Source: a virus
Reading direction: 5' to 3' (one strand)
IMG/VR virus record: IMGVR_UViG_3300020169_000083
Coordinates: 1 to 28,076 of that record
DNA length: 28,076 nt
A model generated the notes under the pieces. The model saw only the letters and a program-made list of their open reading frames with translations, had not been told where the DNA came from and ran no database searches. Of this stretch, positions 26,266 through 28,076 are shown one piece after another; the first letter of the stretch is position 1; every line of letters begins with the position of its first letter. The position numbers and the translations under genes were made by a program.

Positions 26266-26349
26266 CTAATCTTTAAAAGTTAAATAAGCATAAAATAGAT
26301 AAACACCTACAATGACAATGACTGAAAAGAAAGCTGTTGTTGTTGCCAT
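26266..26349 (-). CDS. 27-aa single-span membrane peptide
   Basis: The ATG at 26349 overlaps the previous stop as TGATG; the frame ends TAG 3 bases before the TerS start. The peptide is MATTTAFFSVIVIVGVYLFY plus a short tail ending KD: one hydrophobic helix with no soluble domain. Coupled ends in a packed operon support translation. Function unknown. Confidence 0.55.
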   Translation of the reverse strand: MATTTAFFSVIVIVGVYLFYAYLTFKD

Positions 26350-26624
26350 CAGTTTATGTCTTTTGAAGTCATTATGTCATCCATAGGTCTAATATCTTCC
26401 GGAATGACATCCATCAATTGCAATTCTTCAACACCACTTTCAAGTTTATCTTTAAATATAGATGCTGTTTCTATTGCCTTATCAAGTGCATATCCTTTGC
26501 ATATTCCTTTTACATAAGATACAACACCTATTTGATCAGGAAATACTTCTTCAATCAATGTAAAGAAATCAACCCTTCCATCCGGCAATCTTGGTGTTTT
26601 GAAATTTTCCACTTTTTCACTCAT
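26349..26624 (-). CDS. Hypothetical protein, 91 aa
   Basis: The protein has a Pro/Arg opening (MSEKVENFKTPRLPDGRVDF), helix-prone middle with YVKGICKGYALDKAIETASI and an acidic end. It lies between the tRNA and the 27-aa membrane peptide, one gene before the terminase. The A-rich leader AATAAATAAACAAAAACA precedes its ATG. No family recognised. Confidence 0.65.
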   Translation of the reverse strand: MSEKVENFKTPRLPDGRVDFFTLIEEVFPDQIGVVSYVKGICKGYALDKAIETASIFKDKLESGVEELQLMDVIPEDIRPMDDIMTSKDIN

Positions 26625-26648
26625 TGTTTTTGTTTATTTATTTGTTTG

Positions 26649-26742
26649 CTGTGGGGGAAAGACTCGAACTTTCATGAAGGACATTTCTGTTACCTTCGCC
26701 TTCGGGACAGGAAGGTGTGTCTGCCAATTCCACCACCCCACA
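26649..26742 (-). tRNA. Class II tRNA with Leu-like body and GUC (Asp) anticodon
   Basis: Both ends pair as a perfect 7-bp acceptor (TGTGGGG with CCCCACA), with discriminator G73 and no encoded CCA. A 3-bp D stem (GTG/CAC) encloses an 11-base loop containing AATTGG, as in bacterial tRNA-Leu. The anticodon stem is CCTTC/GAAGG with loop CTGTCCC, anticodon GTC. A long variable arm (GAAGG...CCTTC, 5-bp stem) and a perfect T arm with loop TTCGAGT follow. G73, G34, U35, C36, C38, G10 and G2-C71 are all the E. coli Asp identity bases, yet Asp tRNAs lack a long variable arm. GAAGG and CCTTC each occur twice, so the anticodon and variable stems could pair differently. Confidence 0.85.
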
Positions 26743-26744
26743 AT

Positions 26745-26897
26745 TTATGATCCACATGCTTCACAATCTTCATCATCAATATCACAGACATCCGGCTGAA
26801 CTTGATCAGTCATTGCATCAATCCAATTATCCCATGTGTCCCTTGCAACTTTTTCATTCTTCTTCTTCTTCTGTTCTTCTTTTTCTTCATTGCTCAT
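26745..26897 (-). CDS. Small acidic protein with Cys pair, 50 aa
   Basis: The ATG at 26897 lies 11 bases inside the end of the DUF3310 gene and the frame runs 50 codons to TAA, 2 bases before the tRNA's 5' end. The N-terminus is a charged Glu/Lys run (NEEKEEQKKKKNEKVARDTW), then NWIDAM and an acidic tail with three cysteines (VCDIDDEDCEACGS). The Cys-acid tail could hold a metal. No family recognised. Confidence 0.6.
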   Translation of the reverse strand: MSNEEKEEQKKKKNEKVARDTWDNWIDAMTDQVQPDVCDIDDEDCEACGS

Positions 26898-27902: not shown

Positions 27903-28076
27903 ATTCTTCAACTATTTGTTCCATCTCTTTCAATGCAGATTTTAAACATGGAACACAATTTGATGTCTTTGTATTTCCACCAATGTATTTCCTTTGCATA
28001 TCATACAACAATTCCTTCTGTGTTGGATTGATTGTTTGCTTAACATCTTTCAGTAATTTCTTTATTGCAAGATAAT
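27889..28076 (-). CDS. Cys-rich putative zinc-binding protein, C-terminal part (continues at 149-1 across the join)
   Basis: This frame ends TAG at 27891-27889 and is open to the window end. Its first 149 bases repeat the gene part at 149-1, and only 27889-27927 adds new sequence, the last 12 residues (EMEQIVEEYEKE). It has the CxxC pair (NCVPCLK) near the end. Together with the left part it gives one 136-aa gene that proves the circular order. Confidence 0.82.
   Translation of the reverse strand, partial: YLAIKKLLKDVKQTINPTQKELLYDMQRKYIGGNTKTSNCVPCLKSALKEMEQIVEEYEKE
27928..28076. repeat. Terminal direct repeat, right copy (circular join)
   Basis: Identical to bases 1-149 except T at 28054 for C at 127. 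It lies wholly in the Cys-rich gene. Confidence 0.93.

Follow-up and report, generated by a model that had tools for sequence, protein, structure and literature searches.

A leucine-bodied tRNA-like RNA with aspartate identity bases in phages and Sphingobacteriales, a possible carrier for asparagine synthesis

Results

Location and fold of the element

A tRNA-like element, composed of positions 1-73 and an encoded C74, lies on the minus strand of a phage genome at 26648..26742, as placed by ARAGORN and by covariance model R2. The genome is represented by an IMG/VR virus record of 28,076 bases (the window, meaning the whole stretch of DNA analysed). Its first and last 149 bases (1-149 and 27928-28076) are 99.3% identical, suggesting that the genome is complete and either circularly read or terminally redundant. 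ARAGORN, a check that the first-pass annotation of the window had itself proposed, makes a sole call in the record, tRNA-Asp(gtc) at 26648-26742 on the minus strand. U1 to G73 map exactly to 26742-26649 and C74 to 26648; CCA is not encoded. Position numbers, 20a included, follow the usual tRNA numbering as counted by ourselves. Two open reading frames (ORFs), both on the minus strand, flank the element: one of 50 amino acids (26745..26897), whose stop codon ends 2 nt before the element start, and one of 91 amino acids (26349..26624) downstream of it.

Read along the minus strand, the element begins with the 5' side of the acceptor stem, UGUGGGG (26736..26742), containing U1 and G2. The D arm, GUG-GAAUUGGCAGA-CAC (26717..26733), is of leucine type, and Pedobacter tRNA-Leu(uaa) has an arm of the same type. 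It is followed by the anticodon arm CCUUC-CUGUCCC-GAAGG (26699..26715), whose loop (26704-26710) carries G34, U35, C36, C37 and C38, by a variable region of 25 nt with the arm GAAGG...CCUUC (26674..26698), by the T arm GAAAG-UUCGAGU-CUUUC (26657..26673) and by the 3' side of the acceptor stem, CCCCACA, with the discriminator G73 at 26649 (26649..26656). The minimum-free-energy fold is a full cloverleaf of -28.8 kcal/mol, with acceptor, D, anticodon and T stems of 7, 3, 5 and 5 bp and a variable arm. A class II tRNA with leucine-type D arm and long variable arm had been proposed for this place, and ARAGORN and the fold confirm its cloverleaf, on the minus strand. The bases named in that proposal (G10, G34, U35, C36, C37, C38, G73 and G2-C71) and its duplicate GAAGG/CCTTC segments are all there.

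Folding energy by itself is unremarkable (z -0.89; 34 of 200 shuffled sequences fold at least as well) and thus gives the element no support. What sets it above chance is conservation, in the fold of its relatives and in family-wide covariation. Three phages with terminases 99-100% identical to that of the window (L001, L003, L004) keep the fold and the GUC anticodon, with C or U at position 37. Two of them, L003 and L004, show a compensatory change in the T stem, from A50-U64 to G50-C64, and their variable arm stays paired through G-U. Related phage loci whose terminases are at most 91% identical yielded no element, which is therefore optional cargo in this phage group. In the loci of less related phages examined, a spacer or an apparent small ORF lies between the two flanking ORFs, and ARAGORN at lowered threshold gave only scattered low-grade calls in these gaps, none of them the element.

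Covariance model R2 gives the element 97.6 bits, a score for a sequence of its own training set, while matches of 81-89 nt reach at most 68.5 bits, and four of these, when read out, were tRNA-Leu. Rfam has no match on the element at the gathering cut-off or at E 1, and the 401 bases surrounding it give none up to E 1 either. Searches of INPHARED and PLSDB by blastn, with the window element, one phage member and two 46-nt 5' stretches as queries, returned no record covering 80% of any query; where a feature is named in the listed rows, it is mostly tRNA-Leu. The encoded C74 was considered as a special mark and rejected, since C74 is also encoded by nearly all ordinary tRNAs in these phages and in Pedobacter.

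A family of tRNA-shaped RNAs in phages and bacteria

At least 213 distinct members of the family were collected (90 from phages and at least 123 from bacteria among the matches listed), the main sources being IMG/VR phages and Sphingobacteriaceae chromosomes. Scanning IMG/VR with a pattern for a leucine-type D arm and, after it, a YTGTC loop found 117 occurrences in 115 stretches. Leaving aside 17 without a 3' half and 4 that were mis-joined, 96 of these are complete elements; they measure 83 to 161 nt up to A72 and have an acceptor stem of 7 bp and a T stem of 5 bp. Since this pattern had a fixed anticodon, the scan was repeated with a loop-free one, giving 77 stretches. Among the 59 distinct matches the anticodon is GTC in 49, GTT in 6 and ATC in 2, and it stands one base out of register in 2.

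The scan of bacterial genomes gave at least 120 stretches, nearly all from Pedobacter, other Sphingobacteriaceae or Sphingobacteriales; the exceptions among the stretches listed are L182, L197, L265 and L288. Genes around the first three of these, and around the element of L335, look cellular. Bacterial copies among the matches listed are mostly two, some 130-210 bp apart. Five tandem copies occur in one Pedobacter and in Solitalea longa, where they are near-identical and spaced by exactly 150 bp (L229, 503-1219). Phage contigs with the element span about 4 to 310 kb, and some phage members sit among other tRNA genes.

The fold is supported by covariation. In 48 representatives (41 from phages, 7 from bacteria), taken without the variable region, pairing holds in 99.5% of cells, and both-side compensatory changes occur in 17 of the 20 base pairs, a count reached by none of 500 shuffles. 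Collection of the matches required pairing of acceptor and T stems, and the pattern fixed two D-stem pairs. The anticodon stem was left free; it pairs in 98.3% of cells and all five of its pairs covary. In most Sphingobacteriaceae members the central pair of this stem is a U.U mismatch, and 119 of the 123 bacterial members listed have four of the five pairs. G73 is present in 213 of 216 distinct matches collected without any condition on that position, the other three being two leucine-type tRNAs with A73 (L042, L138) and the mis-joined L081; G2-C71 is kept in 212 of 213 members. In the variable region, two members of 75 nt (L169, L335) have lost the arm, and larger ones share a common internal-loop motif. 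What emerges is an RNA of tRNA shape and leucine-type body that is both structured and conserved.

The Rfam tRNA model matches the element in 2 of 23 sources checked and in none of eight Bacteroidota loci. ARAGORN labels many phage members tRNA-Asp and calls no element in four Pedobacter or Solitalea loci run alone (L174, L191, L229, L203). A gene usually present in two copies is thus missed by common tools in the Bacteroidota loci run. A search of open-licence PMC papers, preprints excluded, found none on this RNA.

Recurrent neighbours, compared as sequence clusters, comprise phage genes and an Lrp/AsnC-like gene, and no partner gene was recognised among them. The Lrp/AsnC-like regulator gene, named by eye, lies near the element in 97 of 242 loci, all bacterial (for example L203), and its presence is probably a matter of synteny. 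AsnC-type regulators respond to amino acids. The anticodon arm of Pedobacter members reads CACCUCCUU, with the U.U stem mismatch, and resembles the 3' tail of 16S rRNA. Mimicry of this tail was rejected as a function, as phage members lack the sequence.

Aspartate identity and decoding features of the anticodon loop

Loop composition was counted in 111 members not selected by their loop, 56 from phages (those of the 59 loop-free matches that are complete and have G73) and 55 from bacteria. The latter are the distinct members from fetched loci of covariance model R1, a part of all R1 matches, and as R1 was trained on 26 sequences, 24 of them with GUC, they carry a mild bias. U35 is present in all 111 members, G34 in 108, C36 in 105, C38 in 100 and U33 in 95, and three members have A34. 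Position 37 is U in 74, C in 19, G in 18 and A in none. The bacterial subset, in which G73 was a condition of selection, has G34 in 54 of 55 and U35, C36 and C38 in all 55; the phage subset has G34 in 54 of 56, U35 in 56 and C36 in 50. The other six phage members have U36, always together with A38, and C36 members have C38 in 100 of 105 cases.

By comparison, 204 ordinary tRNAs of the same phage loci have U33 in 200 and a purine at position 37 in 202 (A37 in 177, G37 in 25). The window element itself retains U33 and has C37 instead of a purine. The first-pass annotation had found C37 odd, and a purine is indeed usual; it is, however, no peculiarity of a single sequence, A37 being absent from the entire tally. 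The same absence, together with the 16 of 111 members having a base other than U at position 33, bears out its view that this is not a standard decoding tRNA. Among all 213 members A37 occurs in two (L127, L148), both from the loop-fixed scan and both with the full CUGUCAC loop of tRNA-Asp.

The bacterial aspartate identity set consists of G73, G10, G34, U35, C36 and C38, and G1-C72 and G2-C71 are conserved in bacterial tRNA-Asp, according to excerpts of PMC9976931. A complete set had been ascribed to the element: all the bases listed are present, but U1-A72 takes the place of G1-C72, so that the set is not quite complete. G73 was found in 27 of 27 model-found members printed without a G73 condition. 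G10, present in the window element, occurs in 15 of the same 27 (the pattern searches fixed it elsewhere). Retention of GUC, C38 and G73, beside absence of A37 and relaxed U33, points to a loop that keeps what AspRS would read and has dropped what the ribosome would need.

The first base pair and co-occurrence with GatB

According to excerpts of PMC9976931, a U1-A72 pair makes Asp-tRNA a substrate for amidation, and in tRNA-Asp this reaction is blocked by G1-C72 and U20a. U1-A72 is the pair through which bacterial GatCAB recognises Asp-tRNA. The window element has U1-A72 and A at 20a. This first pair, against G1-C72 of bacterial tRNA-Asp, is the main clue to our reading of the element. U1-A72 is found in 198 of 213 members, and A20a in all 27 model-found members (the pattern searches fixed 20a elsewhere). 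The remaining 15 members, all from phages, have A1-U72, six of them with GUU. They do not fit an amidation step by GatCAB, whose recognition of such RNAs is doubtful; with either GUC or GUU, they may be variants charged with Asp or Asn that meet a different fate.

In a sample of 61 genomes of the bacterial family of Pedobacter, R1 at a cut-off of 70 bits detected the element in 34 and not in the other 27, with tRNA-Leu-sized matches scoring at most 61 bits. Among 41 genomes of the order of Pedobacter (R1, E 1e-14) it occurs in 35, usually in two copies, and GatB_N (PF02934) is present in the very same 35. The six others (G007, G127, G312, G331, G345, G377) have neither; they may form one clade, in which case the exact match would amount to one event.

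A class-wide sample of 149 genomes, in which 27 candidates per genome were scored, contained the element in 15 by R1, all of them read out as members and including diverged ones with A-U or U-A as D-stem pair 10-25. Model R2, run on a nested 39 of these genomes, added G012, G054 and G390, giving 18. GatB is present in 113 of the 149 and in all 18 element genomes (p 0.005, uncorrected and ignoring kinship); in the 39-genome subset alone, 6 of 27 GatB genomes have the element versus 0 of 12 without GatB (p 0.09). As no element was detected in 95 of the 113 GatB genomes, GatB looks necessary for the element, not sufficient. The co-occurrence may rest on few independent events. In 140 genomes of the phylum of G004 the element was detected in G004 only; a second match there, G556, proved on reading to be an ordinary tRNA-Leu and was rejected. 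Likewise, G003 is the only one with the element among 36 genomes of its order.

Enzymes and tRNAs of a bacterial host of the element

Pedobacter montanisoli (Sphingobacteriaceae, Sphingobacteriales) was checked as a host. Its ordinary tRNA-Asp, which coexists with the element in this one host, is of class I, with G1-C72, U20a and the loop CUGUCAC; its tRNA-Asn has U1-A72 and U20a. In the 2.4 of 3.3 Mb read, GlnRS, AsnRS, one bacterial-type AspRS and GatB are encoded, and no AsnA match was found. Presence of AsnRS and GlnRS means that tRNA-Gln and tRNA-Asn can be charged without GatCAB. Two AsnB-like proteins score above the NCBI asn_synth cut-off, so that asparagine need not depend on the element. 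Pedobacter AspRS reads RDLGG around position 30, and leucine at this position is a sign of a discriminating AspRS.

Four large phages (L070, L075, L126, L131) likewise hold, beside the element, a class I GUC tRNA with A37 and G73. Compensation for a missing tRNA is disfavoured as a role of the element by these tRNAs and that of P. montanisoli. The phage of L083, which holds the element too, has a class I GUC tRNA with C1-G72 and A73, which ARAGORN calls tRNA-Asp but which is no ordinary one.

Discussion

Judged by its bases and its co-occurrence with GatB, the element may well be, at about even chances, a dedicated non-decoding carrier on which AspRS loads aspartate and GatCAB makes asparagine, and of which phages carry copies. 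Its transcript would be matured by RNase P and the CCA enzyme and charged with aspartate by AspRS through G34, U35, C36, C38 and G73. GatCAB would then amidate the bound aspartate to asparagine, a step we infer from U1-A72 and A20a, which replace the protective G1-C72 and U20a. The resulting Asn-RNA would keep asparagine away from aspartate codons, because the element would decode badly or not at all; a carrier of this kind must stay out of decoding, since otherwise asparagine would enter at these codons. Asparagine would finally be released, or passed on, for use by AsnRS. The element would thus serve as RNA cofactor in making asparagine by a tRNA-dependent route where AspRS does not charge tRNA-Asn: with an aspartate loop, G73 and U1-A72 on an RNA that does not decode, even a cell with a discriminating AspRS could make asparagine on RNA. 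Phages carry the element like other tRNA genes, perhaps raising the supply of asparagine or replacing degraded host RNA. Asparagine demand of the phage (6.5% asparagine across the 28 ORFs of the window, at 33% G+C) is plausible as the benefit and not telling. The leucine-type body is presumably a matter of ancestry. We more tentatively put forward the wider reading, in which a functional class of non-decoding tRNA, a dedicated RNA cofactor for the conversion of aspartate to asparagine, uniting AspRS and GatCAB identity on one molecule, is kept by many Sphingobacteriales and is metabolic cargo of phages of very different size.

Related systems offer both likenesses and differences. Passages of PMC4206432 explain GatCAB beside AsnRS and GlnRS by tRNA-dependent asparagine synthesis through a non-discriminating AspRS, list Bacteroidetes with the genera that have all three enzymes but lack an asparagine synthetase, and describe non-discriminating AspRS with GatCAB acting on tRNA-Asn in Bdellovibrio, Deinococcus and Thermus. 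The route proposed here resembles the one in those passages, in that AspRS would load an RNA with G73 and U1-A72 and GatCAB would amidate it in cells with AsnRS and GlnRS; it differs in that the latter employs decoding tRNA-Asn and a relaxed AspRS (PMC4206432), whereas the element would be a separate non-decoding carrier with an aspartate anticodon, which a discriminating AspRS could serve. With tRNA-Asp it shares G34, U35, C36, C38, G73 and G2-C71, but it is of class II, with a 25-nt variable region, U1-A72, A20a and nearly never A37. Bacterial class II tRNA-Leu, with its D arm and variable arm, is most likely the ancestor; unlike it, the element has G73 instead of A73, GUC, a weak 1-72 pair and a variable arm that can be lost. 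Non-proteinogenic tRNA-Gly of Staphylococcus aureus is a charged tRNA kept from translation, as the element would be; it carries another amino acid, and its changes lie in EF-Tu contacts, according to excerpts of PMC9976931, whereas those of the element lie in the anticodon loop. Allo-tRNAs and selC* tRNA-Cys, as treated in parts of PMC7609411, are likewise natural long-arm tRNAs outside the usual sets; their acceptor and anticodon stems are lengthened, while the element has 7/5 and 5 bp.

Several other explanations have to be weighed against the carrier. Retained aspartate identity, lost decoding features and the link to GatB would be shared by an Asp- or Asn-charged donor for another non-ribosomal reaction, or by a regulator that occupies AspRS or GatCAB, neither providing a route to free asparagine. 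The AsnB-like genes of P. montanisoli may supply free asparagine in another way, and non-proteinogenic tRNA-Gly for peptidoglycan, described in excerpts of PMC9976931, is a precedent for a donor. The recurrent neighbours, as sequence clusters, include no recognisable transferase or other partner gene, and we hold this explanation to be rather unlikely. A working decoding tRNA, either an extra aspartate tRNA of the phage or an inserter of asparagine at aspartate codons, would agree with the intact cloverleaf, the GUC anticodon, the ARAGORN label of many phage members, the placement of the gene like other phage tRNAs and the two members with a CUGUCAC loop. It is nevertheless improbable: A37 is found in 0 of 111 members versus 177 of 204 neighbouring ordinary tRNAs and a base other than U33 in 16 of 111 versus 4 of 204, P. 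montanisoli and four phages already possess a class I GUC tRNA with G73, and asparagine at aspartate codons would be harmful.

An anticodon nuclease such as colicin E5, whose cut site lies between G34 and U35, could be countered by a decoy or by a spare that resists cleavage, and such a role would suit the almost invariant G34-U35, a body unlike that of tRNA-Asp and carriage by phages. Yet three of the 111 members have A34, and neither G73, C38 and U1-A72 nor the link to GatB would be needed for this purpose, which makes it a poor candidate. The first-pass annotation had suggested such an anti-nuclease spare as an example; nothing in the idea predicts that many Sphingobacteriaceae should regularly have the element on their chromosomes, or that 35 of the 41 order genomes should have it together with GatB, and it finds no support here and keeps a low probability. 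A decayed tRNA-Leu gene or a chance fold without function might be suspected from the failure of the Rfam tRNA model, the ordinary folding energy and the absence at terminase identities of 91% or less. Compensatory changes in 17 of 20 pairs, G73 in 213 of 216 matches and regular presence in the order leave it practically no credence, and we regard it as already refuted by the covariation. As for other charging enzymes, LeuRS needs A73 and is disfavoured by G73, and SerRS, for which G73 and a long arm would speak, is disfavoured by the existence of 75-nt members without the arm, which the window element itself has.

If the element is indeed a carrier for asparagine synthesis, it would explain why GatCAB is kept in some bacteria with both AsnRS and GlnRS. 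It would also show that RNA can serve amino-acid synthesis as a dedicated cofactor apart from translation, and phages would gain metabolic cargo of a new kind.

Other unusual tRNAs were noted in the same material. A 143-kb phage contig (L042, 203-291) encodes a leucine-bodied tRNA with anticodon GUC, A37 and A73, which lies outside the element family and is perhaps a tRNA-Leu with changed anticodon. The contig of L132 has, in addition to the element, a 76-nt class I tRNA called tRNA-Asp by ARAGORN, with the loop CUGUCUA (GUC, U37). Three of the large phages (L070, L126, L131) encode tRNAs with leucine anticodons (uag, uaa, caa) and a short class I variable loop, some with a leucine-type D arm, which would be unusual substrates of LeuRS.
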